Shown here piece by piece: positions 36,310-42,298 of a DNA stretch of 60,037 bases (its first letter is position 1; every line of letters begins with the position of its first letter). A model generated the notes under the pieces. It was not told the origin of the DNA, searched no databases, and worked only from the letters and a program-made list of their open reading frames with translations. Both the position numbers and the translations under genes were made by a program. The DNA is from Candidatus Gastranaerophilales bacterium. GTDB lineage: Bacteria > Cyanobacteriota > Vampirovibrionia > Gastranaerophilales > Gastranaerophilaceae. The stretch lies in the NCBI GenBank assembly GCA_944323265.1, contig CALURX010000009.1, positions 1-60,037 on the forward strand, read 5' to 3'.

Positions 36310-36549
36310 AAAATTGTCGTAGGGGGACTGTCTTGGATTTGCTCCACGCTCGGAAAGTTTCGCATTAGCGGCGCTGCCGCTGTATGCTCAATTTCCTCGC
36401 TATCCGGACTAACTTCGTGTCGTCCGTACGCAAATCCGCTTGAACCATTTGAAGGCTCTGCCTTGGGGTGCTGCATCCTCATACTGACAATAAAAAAGAG
36501 CCCATAAAGGACTCTTCTTTATTGTCGTAGGGGGGACTTGAACCCCCAA
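36310..36549. repeat. left copy of the 240-bp direct repeat (attL region)
   Basis: Matches 42058-42298 with one single-base length difference in a G run. It contains a tRNA-Leu 3'-end-like sequence at each end (GTCGTAGGGGGACT at 36315 and TGTCGTAGGGGGGACTTGAACCCCC at 36523). The terminator hairpin that serves the tRNA in the right copy is also present here (AAGAGCCC...GGACTCTT). The final 27 bases equal the tRNA-Leu 3' end, but the rest of the tRNA is missing. Confidence 0.85.
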
Positions 36550-36625
36550 TATTGCCGTTAAGTACCGTAATATTGGGACTATTTCACCCCGTTTCAGAAA
36601 CATTATACCCCATTCGGAATGAATT

Positions 36626-36649
36626 GCAAGTACATAATAAGTACATAGT
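36626..36649. other. left integrase arm-like site pair
   Basis: Two AAGTACATA repeats in GCAAGTACATAAT-AAGTACATAGT. The same 24 bases, with one inserted C, occur at 42001-42025 beside the other end of the element. This matches what is expected for arm-type sites of a tyrosine recombinase. Confidence 0.6.
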
Positions 36650-36739
36650 TTTGCATTGGATAGATGATAGTTAATAACTAATACTTTTGACTAACTTTCA
36701 ATCTATATTTGACCTTGAAACCATTTTATTTTTATAAGC

Positions 36740-36863
36740 AATTCTACATTAGAATAAATAGATTTAAGGAATAAGTAGAATAAAGAATTAATAGAATTAT
36801 TTATAACAAATTAAAATAAATAGAACTAATAATATATCAAAATAATTCTATTATTTCGTTATT
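36740..36863. repeat. AT-rich iteron-like tract
   Basis: About 120 bases of nearly pure A/T with at least five copies of a TAGAAT/AATAGAA-like motif in both orientations. It sits directly upstream of a dyad and of the element's largest gene. The arrangement resembles a plasmid replication origin, but no replication protein family was recognised. Confidence 0.4.
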
Positions 36864-36883
36864 CTTAGATACTTGTATCTAAG
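36864..36883. promoter_or_regulatory. perfect dyad CTTAGATAC-TT-GTATCTAAG
   Basis: A 9-bp perfect inverted repeat with a 2-base centre, at the edge of the AT-rich tract. It could be an operator or an origin-binding site for the 447-residue protein. Confidence 0.5.
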
Positions 36884-36909
36884 ATGAAAAAGGAGAAGGG
36901 AGTTTGTTG

Positions 36910-36990
36910 CTCCACCAAACCTAAGTTTATATTTTAGTTAGTAATATATACTCTTGGTTGTTTATAAGGTGGAGTAATATATTCCACCTT
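36910..36990 (+). promoter_or_regulatory. possible attenuator in the leader of the 447-residue protein
   Basis: Two mutually exclusive hairpins. CTCCACC (36910-36916) can pair with GGTGGAG (36968-36974), or AAGGTGGA (36966-36973) can pair with TCCACCTT (36983-36990), which is followed by TTGATTTTCT. The second looks like a weak intrinsic terminator. Such switches control rep genes of some plasmids. Confidence 0.45.
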
Positions 36991-37061
36991 TTGATTTTCT
37001 TAAGAGAAATACAAGAGATATTACATTTTAAAATACATTACACAACTAAGAGGAATATACA

Positions 37062-38405
37062 ATGGCAGTAAAAACTTATGACGAAGAAATAGCGTATATT
37101 ACACGCAAATTACAAGCACTTATTAACGCAGGTTATGTTATCAGAAATAGTTCTGGCAAACCTATAACATCAGCACATCAGGCAGCGACTGATTTATACA
37201 GTTCTGCTTCAAAGATATATACATTAACCATGCCAGATGACCATAAATGCTGTTGCATAAAGTGGTCAAATATGGCAATCAAGCTAATTAAACCTTATAT
37301 AAAAAACAAGTTTTTCATAGAACAATGGACATCAAATTCACACTATATGCTGGTTGATAGTTCTATGGCTGAACAGTTACAGCAGCTTCAACCTATTGAA
37401 GATATTGAAGTAGTTGATACCTTTGAATTAGAGTTCACGAAGTCAACCTTGCCGACCTACTCAAACAGAGCTTCGCTCTTTACTGTAAATACGGCACCAG
37501 TCTTAGCACCTAAAGAATTAGAAAAAGTCCTATCTTTATCGGAGCATATTCTAGTAAACCAAAACAACTATTTCCTACTATCCAATTCAATAACACACAC
37601 ATATAATGCCCCTATGACAATTATTCGTATATTAGGCGAGAATGTGATATCATTGAGTGCACTGAATTTGCTGGAGTTGATACTAACCTACGCAACTAAT
37701 AGCTCGGCTGTCTTTAGAAATAAGACAGATGAGCTTAAACCATTCATAATACCTTTTGATTTTTTCAGTAATGAAGATTTTGAGCTTGCCCAATCCATTG
37801 ATGAAATATCATCATCTCTTGCAGAACTTAAAGCTATTAATTTAATTAATTCTTATAAGTTTATCCCGGAAATTGTAGCATTTGAAATTGTATCAAATGT
37901 TATAACTAAGTCTATCAAGCAATATTCATATACACAGCCTATAGGGTACTACAAATCACTAAAATTGCACCAGCAGGATTACTGTTATACCTTTGTTAAC
38001 TACCTACAATATGTTTCAAATATCAAATATACGACAAAATCAGCAGTAGCTGAAAATGTCGAAGCACAAGACATAAGGAAGGCTGAGAAACTGACAATCT
38101 GTTTACCATCGCTATTATATAACCTTGGGCAAGATAAATATATTCAAGACCATACCAGAATAGCACAGGTGCTTAATAACTTGTATCAAGCTGGCATGAA
38201 AGCATTCTTGTTAAAACAAACACCTTTTGAAATAAATAATAGTGCTGTAAAAGATATCCTTTCGCATAAAGATAGCTTACATAAATACTTTATACTTGAT
38301 ACCGAAGAAAAAATGAAAGTTAATTTTGAAGCATACAAAGAATTGGTAACATTAGTGAACCTTGATATCAAACCTTCACAATACCGAAAATTAGTACAGC
38401 GTTAG
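37062..38405 (+). CDS. 447-residue protein of unknown function, element-encoded
   Basis: The largest cargo gene. No family recognised. It begins MAVKTYDEEIAYITRKLQAL and has three adjacent Cys (KCCCIKWSNMA) near residue 67. The middle (residues about 170-300) is helical with hydrophobic repeats, and the C-terminus is basic (KPSQYRKLVQR). There is no TM or signal peptide. AGAGGA precedes the ATG. Its position behind an AT-rich iteron-like tract and a possible attenuator suggests a replication initiator or primase-like role, which is an inference from context. Three neighbouring genes on the same strand may be co-expressed. Confidence 0.65.
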   Translation: MAVKTYDEEIAYITRKLQALINAGYVIRNSSGKPITSAHQAATDLYSSASKIYTLTMPDDHKCCCIKWSNMAIKLIKPYIKNKFFIEQWTSNSHYMLVDSSMAEQLQQLQPIEDIEVVDTFELEFTKSTLPTYSNRASLFTVNTAPVLAPKELEKVLSLSEHILVNQNNYFLLSNSITHTYNAPMTIIRILGENVISLSALNLLELILTYATNSSAVFRNKTDELKPFIIPFDFFSNEDFELAQSIDEISSSLAELKAINLINSYKFIPEIVAFEIVSNVITKSIKQYSYTQPIGYYKSLKLHQQDYCYTFVNYLQYVSNIKYTTKSAVAENVEAQDIRKAEKLTICLPSLLYNLGQDKYIQDHTRIAQVLNNLYQAGMKAFLLKQTPFEINNSAVKDILSHKDSLHKYFILDTEEKMKVNFEAYKELVTLVNLDIKPSQYRKLVQR

Positions 38406-38443
38406 TAATTATAATGCCTGCTGTTGCAGGCAAGGAGTTTTAA

Positions 38444-38632
38444 ATGAGTAAATACAATCAAGATGATTATGATTTTATTGAAGATGAAGAATTTCAAGCG
38501 TTTCTTAAAAATAAACTTGGTGAGAAATTTGTACCACGTTACAAGTTTTTCACCATACTCAACAGATGTAAAAGAGAATATATACACTATCTTAATCATC
38601 CAGCTATGTTTAAAAATACACCATTATATTAG
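38444..38632 (+). CDS. 62-residue acidic/basic small protein
   Basis: Small protein with AAGGAGTTTTAA before the ATG. The N-terminus is very acidic (MSKYNQDDYDFIEDEEFQAF) and the rest is basic and aromatic (RYKFFTILNRCKREYIHYL). It begins 38 bases after the 447-residue gene and 13 bases before the next small gene. No known family. Confidence 0.6.
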   Translation: MSKYNQDDYDFIEDEEFQAFLKNKLGEKFVPRYKFFTILNRCKREYIHYLNHPAMFKNTPLY

Positions 38633-38645
38633 AGAGGAAATTAAT

Positions 38646-38852
38646 ATGAATAGAAAGGAACTTGCGGAAAAATTAAAAGCAGAAGCAGAAGCAAATAGAG
38701 CTGAAACTATTAAAACATCTGATACCCCGCAGCCGTTGAAACCTACGGAGAAGGCGAAAGCATTGTTGCGTAAGACAGATAGTAAATATATTAATCACGT
38801 ATCAAAAAAAACTCCTTCCCGGTTTAGATTAAATTGTATAGGCGAATATTAA
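38646..38852 (+). CDS. 68-residue basic small protein
   Basis: I start at the ATG behind AGAGAGGAAATTAAT. The longer frame beginning at 38463 overlaps the previous gene and has no SD. The N-terminal half is a charged helix (MNRKELAEKLKAEAEANRAE), and the C-terminus is basic (KKTPSRFRLNCIGEY). It is probably co-transcribed with the two genes upstream. No known family. Confidence 0.55.
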   Translation: MNRKELAEKLKAEAEANRAETIKTSDTPQPLKPTEKAKALLRKTDSKYINHVSKKTPSRFRLNCIGEY

Positions 38853-39087
38853 CGAAGTCATAGCCATGCCTGTTTATTCATCCTCTTAAATGGCTAAAAT
38901 TAGCTTGTGCATTTGAGAATAGACCTATGACACAATATATAGTCCTTCTTGTGCTGAATAGCGTGCTGGCATGGTAAGCTCATCTTAACAATTCTTAATA
39001 ATTTAGGCAATTTTTCATGTGTTTTAGACTTTATATATGTATGTAGAAGAAATAACAGTGTACTTATACACAGAAAGTAGGTTTTAA
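38853..39087. other. 235-base spacer with distant inverted repeat
   Basis: No gene seen. GCCATGCC (38863) and GGCATGGT (38968) form a 7/8 inverted pair about 100 bases apart and could enclose a structured RNA. An AT-rich promoter-like stretch (TTTAGACTTTATATATGT) precedes the next gene. Confidence 0.35.
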
Positions 39088-39633
39088 ATGAGCGAATACA
39101 ATGTTAACACAAAACAATTAGACCCTTCAATGTTCAAAAGTGCAATAGGTAAAGGGAATTATACTCCTTCACAGGCAGAAAAAGAATTCTTTGAATGGAT
39201 AGAAAAGAATGCACAAGCTGGTAGAACATACGTATCACCAGAAGGCCATATGGTACATGGTGATGATATTATACGCAGTCGTGAGTTCACTAAAAGCATT
39301 ACTAAGTCTAATGTTATACCTCAAGATGTGCAAAAAGAAATGAATGGGGTAAACATAAAAGGTGCTTTGTCGAAAGATACTGTTGAACTTAAAACAAAAC
39401 CTACTATGCTGAAAAATGGAATTAGTACTGGAAATATAGAATTATCACAGGCAGAAAAAGAATTCTTTGCATGGTTAGAAAAGAATGCACAAGCTGGTAG
39501 AACATACGTATCACCAGAAGGACATATGGTACATGGTGATGATATTATACGCAGTCGTGAATTCACTAAAAGCATTACTAAAAAAATAAATCTAAAGAAT
39601 GTTACCAATCTTATTAAAAAAGTAAGAGTATAG
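39088..39633 (+). CDS. 181-residue protein with two copies of a 45-residue module
   Basis: A protein of unknown function composed of two near-identical modules (about residues 28-73 and 120-165). Each contains QAEKEFF, then W(I/L)EKNAQAGRTYVSPEGHM and VHGDDIIRSREFTKSITK. At the DNA level 39171-39305 and 39447-39581 differ at only a few bases, so the duplication is very recent. The linker is unrelated. There is no TM or signal peptide. GTAGG-type SD is weak. A terminator follows at 39656. Confidence 0.6.
   Translation: MSEYNVNTKQLDPSMFKSAIGKGNYTPSQAEKEFFEWIEKNAQAGRTYVSPEGHMVHGDDIIRSREFTKSITKSNVIPQDVQKEMNGVNIKGALSKDTVELKTKPTMLKNGISTGNIELSQAEKEFFAWLEKNAQAGRTYVSPEGHMVHGDDIIRSREFTKSITKKINLKNVTNLIKKVRV
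39171..39305 (+). repeat. 135-bp intragenic repeat, copy 1
   Basis: First copy of the module inside the 181-residue gene. It is about 97 percent identical to 39447-39581, offset by 276 bases and in the same orientation and frame. Confidence 0.9.
39447..39581 (+). repeat. 135-bp intragenic repeat, copy 2
   Basis: Second copy of the module, in the same frame as copy 1. The few base differences include the Glu-to-Ala and Ile-to-Leu changes before EKNAQAG. Confidence 0.9.
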
Positions 39634-39655
39634 TCATATTCATATGACAATATAG

Positions 39656-39686
39656 AAAAGGCTCATAACTACTGTGAGCCTTTTAT
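39656..39686 (+). terminator. rho-independent terminator
   Basis: Stem AAAAGGCTCA/TGAGCCTTTT with a 9-base loop and a TTTTAT tail, ending the rightward cargo operon. Confidence 0.85.
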
Positions 39687-39776
39687 CTATGCACACTGTT
39701 ACAACATATTCAAGAAGTTATGCAGATTGCCTACAGAACAGCCATAATATAATGTAATGAATTTCAGCTCCAACAC

Positions 39777-39805
39777 TTGACAAAATAAGGGTTATAGTAA
39801 ATAAT
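39777..39805 (+). promoter_or_regulatory. antisense RNA promoter candidate
   Basis: TTGACA, a 17-base spacer and AATAAT. It would start transcription near 39812, toward the 3' end and then the coding part of the small hydrophobic peptide gene on the other strand. Confidence 0.6.
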
Positions 39806-39811
39806 ACTTAT

Positions 39812-39936
39812 ATAGGGGGCAGCCCCCAACAGACTGCTAAATCTTTGTTGAGGACTGCACTTAGTACCCTATAGATTGAATAGTTTTAGTGCTACTACGA
39901 ATAGCGTTGCTACGAATAGTAGCACTATTATTTTTT
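39812..39936 (+). ncRNA. candidate antisense antitoxin RNA
   Basis: Predicted plus-strand transcript of about 125 bases. It runs from the promoter at 39777-39805 to an intrinsic terminator formed by TAGTGCTACTA/TAGTAGCACTA (39887-39927) with a T-rich tail at 39928-39936. It covers the whole 3' structure and almost all of the peptide gene in antisense. This is the layout of type I antitoxins such as RatA or SR4. No expression evidence exists in the sequence. Confidence 0.5.
39819..39858 (-). other. stable hairpin in the peptide mRNA 3' end
   Basis: On the minus strand GCAGTCCTCAACA pairs with TGTTGGGGGCTGC (13 pairs, two wobbles) around a 14-base loop. It has no T tract, so it looks like a stabilising or antisense-contact structure rather than a terminator. 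Confidence 0.5.
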
Positions 39937-39943
39937 CAATCAT
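39869..39943 (-). CDS. 24-residue hydrophobic peptide, candidate type I toxin
   Basis: A tiny open frame encoding MIEKIIVLLFVATLFVVALK followed by four more residues. A short charged start leads into a single TM-length helix with a Lys near its end, the shape of Fst/Ldr/Ibs-type membrane toxins. An SD AAAGGGGGTGAT lies about eight bases before the ATG and nearly matches the full anti-SD. The promoter is TTTACA-17-TATAAT at 40050-40022, leaving a leader of about 70 bases. A plus-strand antisense unit overlaps the gene. Homology is not claimed; the call rests on this combination of signals and on its place in an integrative element. Confidence 0.55.
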   Translation of the reverse strand: MIEKIIVLLFVATLFVVALKLFNL

Positions 39944-40021
39944 AGTTTTATCACCCCCTTTCCACCGATTTCTTAGTTAAATACGTGTGTGGGCGGGTTG
40001 TGAGGTACTCCCTTTGATAGC
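39944..40021 (-). other. 5' leader of the peptide mRNA
   Basis: Leader of roughly 70 bases between the minus-strand promoter and the peptide ATG, including the strong SD (GGGGGTGAT). Part of a 529-base stretch (39634-40162) with no conventional gene. Confidence 0.4.
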
Positions 40022-40050
40022 ATTATAATATAAACTGACAGGCATGTAAA
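40022..40050 (-). promoter_or_regulatory. sigma-70 promoter of the small hydrophobic peptide
   Basis: On the minus strand TTTACA (40050-40045), a 17-base spacer and TATAAT (40027-40022). A single mismatch from consensus. It points leftward to the 24-residue peptide. Confidence 0.7.
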
Positions 40051-40162
40051 TAAACCTTGATAGAAGCTCCTTTTCAGCCTTCGTGGTACGCTTGCTTAAT
40101 CTGTAACACCTAGCGACAATATCGGTCGAAAGTTTTGATACTACAGCCCCATGCCAGTATCC

Positions 40163-40600
40163 TTAGTGTTGTGATAGCTTAAAGTCTATAAAGTGCTCAA
40201 TCTCTGTTATATCATCGGCATACAAACCTTTTAAATTTAATAGCTTGCGTAGTTGTTCATCAGTTGATAATACAGGTGTTTTAGCCTTTGTATCTAACAG
40301 GAACTTTTTACTTTCTACATTACCCTTATAGAATAATAAGCTCAATCCGGGAGAAGCTTCATCTTGTGAACGCTTGATTTGAACTGATAGCCCCAGTGCC
40401 TCTGCTAATTTCAACAGTGTTTCGATTTTAGGTAAGACAAGCCTTTTTTCTAAATCATAGATTACAGTGTAGCTGACTCCAGCTCTTTCTCCTAATTCTC
40501 TTACATTGAGATTAAGGGCTTCTCTCCTTTTGGTAAAGAATTCTTTAATTTCTCCTTTAACTTCATTAATGCTATCTGATTTTGAGTTTATCTCTGGCAT
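40163..40600 (-). CDS. XRE-family repressor of the integrative element
   Basis: A 145-residue regulator starting at the ATG behind AAAGGAGATAAC. The longer frame adds 33 unlikely residues. The Cro/C1-type HTH spans residues about 20-75 (RREALNLNVRELGERAGVSY, then TVIYDLEKRLVLPKIETLLKLAEALG). The C-terminal 60 residues are charged and may mediate dimerisation. It is divergent from the xis-int pair, with symmetric CAACTGTT/AACAGTTG half-sites over the two promoters. It probably keeps the element silent and controls its own synthesis. No peptidase domain for SOS cleavage is visible. Confidence 0.85.
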   Translation of the reverse strand: MPEINSKSDSINEVKGEIKEFFTKRREALNLNVRELGERAGVSYTVIYDLEKRLVLPKIETLLKLAEALGLSVQIKRSQDEASPGLSLLFYKGNVESKKFLLDTKAKTPVLSTDEQLRKLLNLKGLYADDITEIEHFIDFKLSQH

Positions 40601-40618
40601 GTTATCTCCTTTGATTGT

Positions 40619-40646
40619 ATTATAACACAATGTTTGAAAAATACAA
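40619..40646 (-). promoter_or_regulatory. promoter of the XRE repressor
   Basis: On the minus strand TTGTAT (40646-40641), a 16-base spacer and TATAAT (40624-40619), followed by the repressor SD and ATG at 40600. Confidence 0.6.
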
Positions 40647-40695
40647 CTGTTAAGAAAAGTAACAAGAATATCAATATGACAAAACCAAACAGTTG
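40644..40695. promoter_or_regulatory. symmetric operator candidate between repressor and xis-int
   Basis: CAACTGTT at 40644-40651 and its exact reverse complement AACAGTTG at 40688-40695. One half-site overlaps the -35 of the repressor promoter and the other overlaps the -35 of the xis-int promoter. This is a plausible binding arrangement for the XRE protein. Confidence 0.6.
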
Positions 40696-40720
40696 ACAAG
40701 AGTCATTTTCATGATATGAT
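40693..40720 (+). promoter_or_regulatory. promoter of xis-int
   Basis: TTGACA, a 16-base spacer and TATGAT, then a 55-base leader to the excisionase ATG. Confidence 0.7.
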
Positions 40721-40775
40721 AGATTTGTGAAAAGCAAACATTTTGCTTTGGTAATATAATTTAAAGGAGAAGTCT

Positions 40776-40949
40776 ATGGAAACATTCGGAATATTAACAA
40801 TTCCACAATTTGCCAAGATGATTGGCAGAGGCAAAAGTACCATTTATGACTGGAAAAACAATGGTACACTTCCAGCGAGCTGTTTTAAACAGGTCGGTGG
40901 AATATGGTACATCAAAGTAGACGAAATGAAAGCATTTATGGCTGCATAG
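40776..40949 (+). CDS. excisionase-like HTH protein, 57 residues
   Basis: Too short for most gene callers, but has AAAGGAGAAGTCT before its ATG. The MerR/HTH_17-type fold is visible: LTIPQFAKMIGRGKSTIYDW, then GGIWYIKVDEMKAFM. It lies 10 bases before the integrase gene, as excisionases and recombination directionality factors often do. It could instead be a transcription factor for the element. Confidence 0.8.
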   Translation: METFGILTIPQFAKMIGRGKSTIYDWKNNGTLPASCFKQVGGIWYIKVDEMKAFMAA

Positions 40950-40959
40950 GTAGGGTTCA

Positions 40960-42000
40960 ATGGCTGGTTTTCGTCAATGTATCAGAAAAGATAAGCGTGG
41001 TGGCTACACATACAGAGTTACTGTAAATGGTGTGCCAAAACAGGGTGCTTGCAAAGATTGCACAACTCGTGAGCAAGCACTTGCTTTTGTTGCTCAACTT
41101 AAAGCAGAACTACGCAATAATAACCAGCCATTGAAAGATGTACCTGTAATTACTATTGGTACACTCGGAGAAAACTACAAACAGTACACAATAGCTCGTA
41201 ACGGAGATATTAAACATGTTAAGTCTAAGGTCAAATTCTTTAATGAATACTTTGGCGAAAATACGCCTGCCGTCAATATTAAGAGAAGCGACTTAGACAC
41301 ATTCATTAACTATTGTAGAACTGAAAGAAATTACAAAGACGCAACAATAGACAGATATATTAGTGCATTATCAAAAATGTATAATAATGCAATTAATGAT
41401 GATGTTTTGATTAAGAACCCTTGTTCTAAAATAGGAAAGTTAGCACTATATGACCAGAATGACTTTAAATTCTGGTATGAGGAAGAAGTGAAAGCAATAA
41501 AGAGTGTTGCTCCCTTATGGTTTAAAGATATGATTGAATGTGCATTGATTATGGGAGTTAGACGTGCCAACATAAGATTGTTCAACAAGAGCTGGATTGA
41601 TTGGGATAGAAAAATGGTAACTGTTCCTCGTAAATACTCCAAGAGCAGAAAAGCCATTCCAATTCCTCTTGGTAATAAATTGAAAGACATTATATTAAGG
41701 AATTTGCAAGATAATGATACAGAGTATGTATTCATTAATCGTCAAAGAAGAACCCCCCGTGCTGAAAAGACATTGGAAGATTACTTAAAGAAGTTCTGTG
41801 AACAAGCTGGGGTAAAATACTACGGTTGGAATGGGTTTAGACATACTGCTGGTTGCAGATTGGCAGATAACGGAGTTGCACCTCAAGAGATTAAAGAATA
41901 CATGGGGCATTCTTCGTTATTAGTAACTCAAAAATACCTTAATAGGAGAGATAAAAGCATGGTTACAGCAATGGAGATATTGGAAGCGTATGATGATTGA
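40960..42000 (+). CDS. int: tyrosine recombinase (integrase)
   Basis: Site-specific recombinase of 346 residues. The N-terminal 50 residues form a small arm-binding domain (GYTYRVTVNGVPKQG). The core-binding domain follows, then the catalytic domain with Arg in IMGVRRANIR, Lys in RKYSKSRKAIPIPL, the His-x-x-Arg pair in FRHTAGCRLADNG and the His-Tyr pair in MGHSSLLVTQKYL. All catalytic residues are present. It ends right beside arm-like repeats, a terminator and the tRNA-Leu target. The start has a weak SD and is probably coupled to the excisionase gene. Confidence 0.93.
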   Translation: MAGFRQCIRKDKRGGYTYRVTVNGVPKQGACKDCTTREQALAFVAQLKAELRNNNQPLKDVPVITIGTLGENYKQYTIARNGDIKHVKSKVKFFNEYFGENTPAVNIKRSDLDTFINYCRTERNYKDATIDRYISALSKMYNNAINDDVLIKNPCSKIGKLALYDQNDFKFWYEEEVKAIKSVAPLWFKDMIECALIMGVRRANIRLFNKSWIDWDRKMVTVPRKYSKSRKAIPIPLGNKLKDIILRNLQDNDTEYVFINRQRRTPRAEKTLEDYLKKFCEQAGVKYYGWNGFRHTAGCRLADNGVAPQEIKEYMGHSSLLVTQKYLNRRDKSMVTAMEILEAYDD

Positions 42001-42025
42001 GCAAGTACATAATCAAGTACATAGT
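42001..42025. other. right integrase arm-like site pair
   Basis: GCAAGTACATAATCAAGTACATAGT directly after the integrase stop. It equals the left-end site apart from one inserted C. Confidence 0.6.
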
Positions 42026-42057
42026 AAAGGCTGGAATACAGTCCCAGCCTTTATTTT
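42026..42057 (+). terminator. rho-independent terminator after int
   Basis: Stem AAAGGCTGG/CCAGCCTTT with a 9-base loop and TATTTT. Confidence 0.85.
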
Positions 42058-42298
42058 AAAATTGTCGTAGGGGGGACTGTCTTGGATTTGCTCCACGCTC
42101 GGAAAGTTTCGCATTAGCGGCGCTGCCGCTGTATGCTCAATTTCCTCGCTATCCGGACTAACTTCGTGTCGTCCGTACGCAAATCCGCTTGAACCATTTG
42201 AAGGCTCTGCCTTGGGGTGCTGCATCCTCATACTGACAATAAAAAAGAGCCCATAAAGGACTCTTCTTTATTGTCGTAGGGGGGACTTGAACCCCCAA
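42058..42298. repeat. right copy of the 240-bp direct repeat (attR region)
   Basis: Matches 36310-36549. It begins with the core ATTGTCGTAGGGGGGACT and runs through a GC-rich spacer of about 190 bases. It then passes the tRNA-Leu terminator (on the minus strand AAGAGTCC/GGGCTCTT with a TTTTTT tail) and the last 27 bases of tRNA-Leu. The open frame at 42013-42231 lies in this repeat and is not a gene. Confidence 0.85.

Follow-up and report, generated by a model that had tools for sequence, protein, structure and literature searches.

A candidate type I toxin-antitoxin-like superfamily in Gastranaerophilales with a putative antisense terminator inside the peptide frame

Does an unannotated locus on an integrative element of a gut bacterium encode a type I toxin-antitoxin module, and is it confined to that one element? 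The locus lies in Candidatus Gastranaerophilales bacterium (GCA_944323265.1, contig CALURX010000009.1), of which positions 1 to 60,037 of the forward strand were analysed (hereafter the window), and was put forward from a reading of the letters as a candidate type I system of the RatA/SR4 kind (the original prediction). We conclude that it is best explained as a type I toxin-antitoxin-like module belonging to a large gut-associated superfamily of Gastranaerophilales, with a probability of about 0.8 given what can be read from the DNA. In our best reading, the superfamily would be new and would combine RNA control like that of Fst/par with control like that of AapA/Hok. The unusual part of the locus is that the predicted terminator of the candidate antitoxin is written in the codons of the candidate toxin, with strand-specific pairing.

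The locus and its predicted transcripts

The peptide gene (candidate toxin; 39869..39943, minus strand) has 24 codons, translates to MIEKIIVLLFVATLFVVALKLFNL, as had been reported, and carries no annotation in the window. The strong Shine-Dalgarno sequence claimed for it is present as AAAGGGGGTGAT (39950..39961, minus strand, running from 39961 to 39950), and strong matches of 5-11 nt were found in nearly all related copies. Two promoters face each other across the gene at the positions previously given for them, each agreeing with the consensus at 11 of 12 bases. The sense promoter, TTTACA-17-TATAAT (40022..40050, minus strand), would start the mRNA near 40015, and the antisense promoter, TTGACA-17-AATAAT (39777..39805, plus strand), would start an antisense RNA near 39812. 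In a consensus scan these two and a site at 40693 are the top three promoter-like sites in 6 kb.

Consensus scans of AT-rich DNA yield many sites (here 31 against 24 expected), and promoter-like and hairpin-like sequences could in principle have met by chance in this AT-rich intergenic region. We consider this hardly credible, since independent related loci retain every part, with profile E-values reaching 1e-67 among the matches listed. When these loci were checked for loss of the frame or the promoters, the frame was open and hydrophobic throughout. The antisense promoter keeps at least 11 of 12 bases in 101 of 105 related loci (shuffled mean 7.9), where its distance from the stop codon hardly varies, and the sense promoter averages 9.3 of 12 bases compared with 7.8 after shuffling.

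The predicted antisense RNA (candidate antitoxin; 39812..39938, plus strand, about 125 nt) is delimited by its conserved promoter and terminator and folds at -40.5 kcal/mol compared with -26.1 (standard deviation 3.2) for shuffled sequences. The predicted mRNA folds at -94 kcal/mol compared with -69.9 (standard deviation 5.2), so that both folds lie at a z of about -4.5. The mRNA passes the antisense start at a 13-bp stem, and the antisense RNA would overlap its 3' end by about 100 nt. At the sequence level the locus therefore has two features of type I systems, a short hydrophobic peptide gene with its own translation signals and an overlapping, predicted antisense RNA gene with its own conserved promoter and terminator.

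Distribution across Gastranaerophilales

A DNA search of the bacterium's own genome revealed a second locus whose likeness to the first is limited to the surroundings of the Shine-Dalgarno sequence and the start. Its peptide (MIEEIRTKIKCALNVIGHILLIVSSLL) is a different one, yet the parts are the same and stand in the same order. The genome holds at least seven copies in total, i.e., at least six beyond the window locus. A pattern search in relatives added six further loci, and a scan of named genomes placed most of the specific matches in Gastranaerophilales and Melainabacteria assemblies. A pattern requiring the same leader matched only the window and one other genome of the family, which had suggested a rare locus. 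This reading was overturned by profile searches, the exact patterns having been too strict.

The first profile, built from the window locus and its nearest relative, detected copies in 180 of 383 family genomes and 29 of 41 genera, often several per genome and sometimes in tandem, with E-values of 1e-67 to 1e-20 among the matches listed in other genomes. A broader profile matched 114 of 386 genomes from the phylum, and 112 of these belong to the window's own family. One of the two matches outside it, from another family of the same order, is a genuine member by inspection. The second, a weak match in a distant member of the phylum, lacks a peptide in the expected form and was taken as chance. 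Tandem arrays comprise 2-4 copies, and one copy is carried by Dulem virus 31, a tailed phage from lemur faeces, whose annotation misses it. The original prediction therefore described a real locus at the correct position, and what it presented as a single locus of one element is a member of a large multicopy superfamily, with hundreds of related copies across Gastranaerophilales, a non-photosynthetic gut relative of cyanobacteria. Conservation across these loci strongly supports its proposal of a candidate type I toxin-antitoxin system.

No match to the locus was found on plasmids, and a pattern built on the sequence after the stop codon matched no viral contigs. Seven viral-contig matches of the first pattern scan turned out on inspection to be different phage peptides or longer frames that have neither the shared leader nor the antisense parts, and three viral contigs with the leader pattern were unmatched by the profile. 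Dulem virus 31 (PP511318.1, 13886-21947) is filed under Microviridae, yet is 35.8 kb long and has tail and baseplate genes; its peptide locus lies amid three annotated small hypothetical genes, none of which is the peptide frame. Contig 10 of the bacterium's own genome encodes a tandem pair of 24-residue peptides, MIVKI(N/S)EKEL.LILA.VLTLKS(L/I)F, whose regulatory frame is the same one in a further diverged form.

According to a 2025 paper, type I systems had been reported only from Proteobacteria, Firmicutes and Tenericutes, to which it adds one candidate from a photosynthetic cyanobacterium (PMC12390103). If our interpretation is true, a superfamily that occurs in roughly every second Gastranaerophilales genome sampled would extend such systems to a major uncultured gut lineage and would back the point made in that paper that the narrow known range reflects search bias.

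Coding evidence and peptide diversity

We collected 107 unique peptide frames from related loci. They mostly span 21-32 residues (one outlier has 44) and mostly carry a net charge of +1 to +3. At least nine peptide sequence types occupy the same regulatory frame, such as DKIIMLLLA (window), KTVITVIITVL, KSAIKLLIALL, IKAAIIAVIAAL, EKAPELELLELF and NDFNLTLLLILL. Conservation at these loci is largely of RNA structure, on both strands, which would suit a structured non-coding RNA pair or repeat element with an incidental, untranslated frame. This is very unlikely, as the Shine-Dalgarno sequence stands at proper spacing, and the start codon is kept and the peptide frame open in all copies. Mean hydropathy in the 107 unique loci is 1.66 in the peptide frame and -0.44 and -0.59 in the other two. 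The +1 frame is interrupted by a stop in every case and the +2 frame in most cases, and alignment gaps inside the peptide frame are multiples of three. By these measures the frames are coding.

A second alternative accepts the peptide and denies the toxin. The product could be a small membrane peptide under antisense control whose role is to modulate a membrane protein or a stress response, the antisense RNA only setting its level. Small regulators with a single membrane helix are known, some copies are situated between core genes (e.g., beside an isocitrate/isopropylmalate dehydrogenase gene), and the toxicity of the peptide is itself a prediction. At least nine unrelated peptides in one regulatory frame fit a generic membrane effect better than a specific partner, however, and copies occur in tandem, on a phage and on an integrative element. 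We therefore regard a non-toxin role as unlikely and retain the toxin-antitoxin interpretation.

Representative peptides had no Pfam or NCBIfam match above chance, and a PDB sequence search gave no match. In a scan of the RNAs of four loci, no Rfam family was found except tRNA, and the other Rfam matches were at chance level.

A putative antisense terminator inside the peptide frame

The perfect 11-bp inverted repeat followed by a T tract that had been noticed within the peptide gene is indeed there (39887..39938, plus strand; arms 39887-39897 and 39917-39927, T tract 39928-39938) and has the form of an intrinsic terminator of the antisense RNA. In most copies the stem begins 16-18 nt past the ATG, and on the coding strand the stem is preceded on its 5' side by an A-rich run that corresponds to the T tract of the antisense terminator. 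Stems inside the frames average 11.6 Watson-Crick pairs compared with 7.0 after synonymous codon reshuffling, and the folding energies of the frame on the sense and antisense strands (-19.3 and -21.0) are about twice those of the reshuffled null (-9.8 and -10.8). In the NDFNLTL subfamily, inspection by eye places a terminator-like hairpin apparently at the 3' end of the frame instead.

The imperfect pairs reveal which strand uses the structure. On the coding strand, the in-frame stems contain 86 A.C and 11 G.T pairs, compared with 48 and 44 in the reshuffled null. Because an A.C on the coding strand is a G.U pair in the antisense RNA and is unpaired in the mRNA, the hairpin appears to be kept for the antisense RNA, and on this evidence it belongs to that transcript as its terminator. 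The hairpin at the 3' end of the mRNA provides an internal control. Its imperfect pairs show the reverse bias (72 G.T and 18 A.C), which assigns it to the mRNA.

We consider it probable that at least nine unrelated toxin-like peptides are carried by a single conserved regulatory frame, made up of the leader hairpin, the leader repeat, the 5'-3' lock, the 3' hairpin and a facing antisense promoter. In nearly all of them the antitoxin terminator would be encoded by the toxin codons, with the A.C/G.U asymmetry keeping it strong in the antisense RNA and weaker in the mRNA. Two genes on opposite strands would then share bases that carry strand-specific structure, and peptide sequences such as KTVITVIITVL would be partly dictated by the antitoxin terminator. 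The balance of A.C and G.T mismatches in a conserved stem offers a simple test, needing only sequences, of which strand's RNA uses the structure, and could help to find antisense RNAs elsewhere. The occurrence of many peptides in one regulatory frame would also allow toxin evolution under an overlapping RNA constraint to be studied.

Conserved structure of the mRNA

The predicted mRNA fold contains, as a 3' hairpin (39819..39858, minus strand; 13 pairs, 39858-39846 with 39831-39819), the 13-bp stem that had been described opposite the antisense 5' end. This hairpin is the strongest covarying helix among related copies. It is closed by an outer stem, ATAGGG/CCCTAT (39812..39872, minus strand), that is 97% paired in 38 diverse copies and is a predicted alternative partner of the post-stop segment. 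That segment, GGTACTAAG (39860..39868, minus strand), follows the stop codon and contains the partner of the 5' arm AGTACC at the mRNA start (40004..40009, minus strand; identified by helix search and pair counts). The 5' arm is able to pair either with the post-stop GGTACT or with a leader repeat. The leader hairpin (39962..39992, minus strand; arms CCAC at 39992-39989 and GTGG at 39965-39962) abuts the upstream side of the Shine-Dalgarno sequence and shows compensatory changes in related loci (CCACC/GGTGG, CCGTC/GACGG, CTGAC/GTCAG and CAGAC/GTCTG). Its loop holds the leader repeat ACTAAG (39972..39977, minus strand), a copy of post-stop sequence that is complementary to the predicted antisense RNA.

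An unsupervised helix search in an alignment of the 38 copies recovered the 3' hairpin, the leader hairpin and two pairings of the 5' arm of the mRNA, one with the post-stop sequence and an alternative one with a leader segment. The long-distance 5'-3' helix (alignment columns 21-28/195-201) is 86% paired. For the structure composed of the 3' hairpin, leader hairpin and 5'-3' pairing, 86.5% of cells are paired, and 20 of 23 pairs have two-sided changes. None of 500 shuffles scored as high on any measure, and sliding the partners by 1-3 columns lowered pairing to 26-52%. The leader repeat covaries with the post-stop sequence, sharing on average 6.6 nt compared with 5.33 (standard deviation 0.11) for permuted partners, a difference of 11 standard deviations. 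The antisense RNA is complementary to the leader because it is complementary to the post-stop sequence that the leader copies, and the predicted energy of the leader-antisense duplex is 5-6 standard deviations better than with permuted partners.

These results bear on a narrower version of the toxin-antitoxin model, conditional on it and not exclusive, in which control would be strictly of the RatA/SR4 type, with only 3' pairing and RNase III decay and no role for the leader repeat. The overlap of about 100 nt at the mRNA 3' end resembles that of txpA/RatA and bsrG/SR4 (PMC6562991). We nevertheless regard this version as doubtful, as the leader repeat covaries with the post-stop sequence, leader-antisense pairing beats permuted partners, and neither peptide nor RNA is related in sequence. 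The likeness to RatA/SR4 asserted in the original prediction thus stands for the overlap geometry and falls for sequence, where Pfam, NCBIfam and Rfam gave no relation of peptide or RNA.

Comparison with known type I systems

In txpA/RatA, bsrG/SR4 and bsrE/SR5 of Bacillus subtilis, as predicted here, the antisense RNA pairs with about 100 nt of the 3' part of the toxin mRNA, and the duplex of RatA with the toxin mRNA is cleaved (PMC6562991). Compared with these systems, the superfamily adds the leader repeat and the covarying 5'-3' pairing, and the window locus has a putative terminator built from toxin codons with strand-specific G.U pairs.

The par/Fst system (RNA I/RNA II of plasmid pAD1 and its chromosomal relatives) shares convergent promoters with our locus and occurs likewise on mobile elements and chromosomes (PMC7472228). 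Through its direct repeats, the antisense RNA can pair at a second site close to the start of translation (PMC7472228). Such a site is also predicted here, with a single short repeat in place of DRa and DRb. Further likenesses are an intramolecular stem-loop that sequesters the Shine-Dalgarno region, here lying before it, and a sequestered mRNA 5' end (PMC7472228). In contrast to par/Fst, there is no shared bidirectional terminator: the antisense RNA would end inside the frame, and the mRNA 3' hairpin is separate and has the opposite strand bias. Neither the PXXXG motif nor the charged tail described for Fst occurs in the peptides, which also have no Pfam match; the window peptide contains no proline, and the PXXXG motif is absent from it. 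The hosts differ as well, Gastranaerophilales here and Firmicutes for Fst.

Translation of the aapA mRNA, which encodes a 30-residue peptide, is held low by 5'-3' pairing and alternative leader structures (PMC6733600), as is that of hok. Our superfamily shares with aapA/IsoA (Helicobacter) and hok/Sok the long-distance 5'-3' pairing with alternative leader structures, the multicopy occurrence and an AapA-like peptide size, whereas the peptide is unrelated and the antisense position and terminator differ. Within the same wider phylum, msoT1/msoA1 of Microcystis aeruginosa is a candidate type I system in which pairing of the antisense RNA covers the end of the coding region together with the 3' untranslated region (PMC12390103), a placement like the one predicted here. 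MsoT1 has 63 residues, two predicted membrane helices and its closest relatives among other cyanobacterial proteins (PMC12390103), and differs in size and sequence from the peptides of 21-32 residues in this multicopy superfamily.

By every test made, the locus is outside the Fst, TxpA/BsrG, AapA and Hok sequence families, and its design may be seen as a mixture of par/Fst and aapA. In the open-licence literature on toxin-antitoxins or small proteins of Gastranaerophilales or Melainabacteria, no description of the superfamily was found.

A model for the control of the locus

We propose that an mRNA starts near 40015 on the minus strand and that its product is a membrane peptide of 24 residues with a single helix. 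The 5' end of this mRNA (AGTACC) would pair with the post-stop GGTACT, and the leader hairpin abuts the Shine-Dalgarno sequence. This putative translational lock would leave the full-length mRNA poorly translated. The strong downstream promoter would meanwhile produce the antisense RNA of roughly 125 nt, which would cross first the mRNA 3' hairpin, then the post-stop segment and then most of the frame until it halts at a terminator hairpin made of the peptide's own codons. Since the leader copies the post-stop sequence, the antisense RNA could find two pairing partners, the 3' part of the mRNA and the leader just upstream of the Shine-Dalgarno sequence, and the likely result would be blocked translation and cleavage of the duplex by RNase. 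If the antisense RNA were lost, e.g., together with the element, the mRNA left behind would be translated, and membrane damage by the peptide would follow. Carried by its 5.75-kb element, the locus would thus act as an addiction module. Maintenance would be the expected role of the element and phage copies, and chromosomal copies may have others.

Several points weigh against this interpretation. Transcription and the toxicity of the peptide are predictions from sequence. The sense promoter is less conserved than the antisense promoter, and no T tract that would mark the end of the mRNA follows its 3' hairpin in the window. The ratio of nonsynonymous to synonymous substitution rates (dN/dS) of 0.54 in 418 pairs, which speaks for coding, is confounded by the overlapping hairpin. 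The structure was taken from the same alignment in which pairs were counted and the shuffles leave relatedness in, so that the effect size says more here than the shuffle count. The permutation test of the 5' arm gave 3.9 standard deviations, weaker than the other tests. With 6-8 nt in most copies the leader repeat is short, and the Shine-Dalgarno sequence is not directly covered by the antisense RNA. The order of events is uncertain because antisense binding would compete with the 5'-3' pairing.

The integrative element and neighbouring genes

The placement of the locus on an integrative element was correct. The 5.75-kb element (36322..42298) is bounded by identical 228-bp direct repeats (36322-36549 and 42071-42298), the second of which overlaps the end of a tRNA-Leu gene. 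It encodes an integrase (40960-42000, plus strand), an HTH_17 excisionase-like protein (40776-40949, plus strand) and an HTH_3 repressor-like protein (40163-40600, minus strand). The terminal repeats contain a shorter interspersed repeat (positions 7-119) that recurs at 12 further sites in the genome with 71-91% identity.

Between the locus and a convergent gene (39088-39633), we detected a bidirectional terminator-like inverted repeat (39650..39690, both strands), which is possibly the downstream end of the mRNA. The convergent gene encodes 181 residues and contains an internal 137-nt duplication (39169-39305 and 39445-39581, 97% identical) that repeats SQAEKEFF..LEKNAQAGRTYVSPEGHMVHGDDIIRSREFTKSITK; its Pfam matches are all below threshold. 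Another gene of the element (37062-38405) encodes a protein of 447 residues without a Pfam match, possibly a replication or transfer protein.

Other small peptide genes

The searches also returned small peptide genes of other kinds. A conserved peptide of 37 residues, MIELTTAGYIVLIALSVLGGYTLHGVVDAIKKGEFFD, is encoded in five viral contigs, where its gene has a strong Shine-Dalgarno sequence and a hairpin follows the stop codon. In Desulfobacterales, a 24-residue hydrophobic frame, MIDILIIVIQFVLVLLDIIKLVID, lies behind GGAAAGGAGGTGAT, and the shared leader was not seen there. Three loci from Adlercreutzia encode hydrophobic peptides of 39-40 residues with a charged tail behind GAAAGGAGGTGATCGCC. 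Their leader is unrelated, and they are possibly holin-like or type I toxin genes of Actinomycetota.
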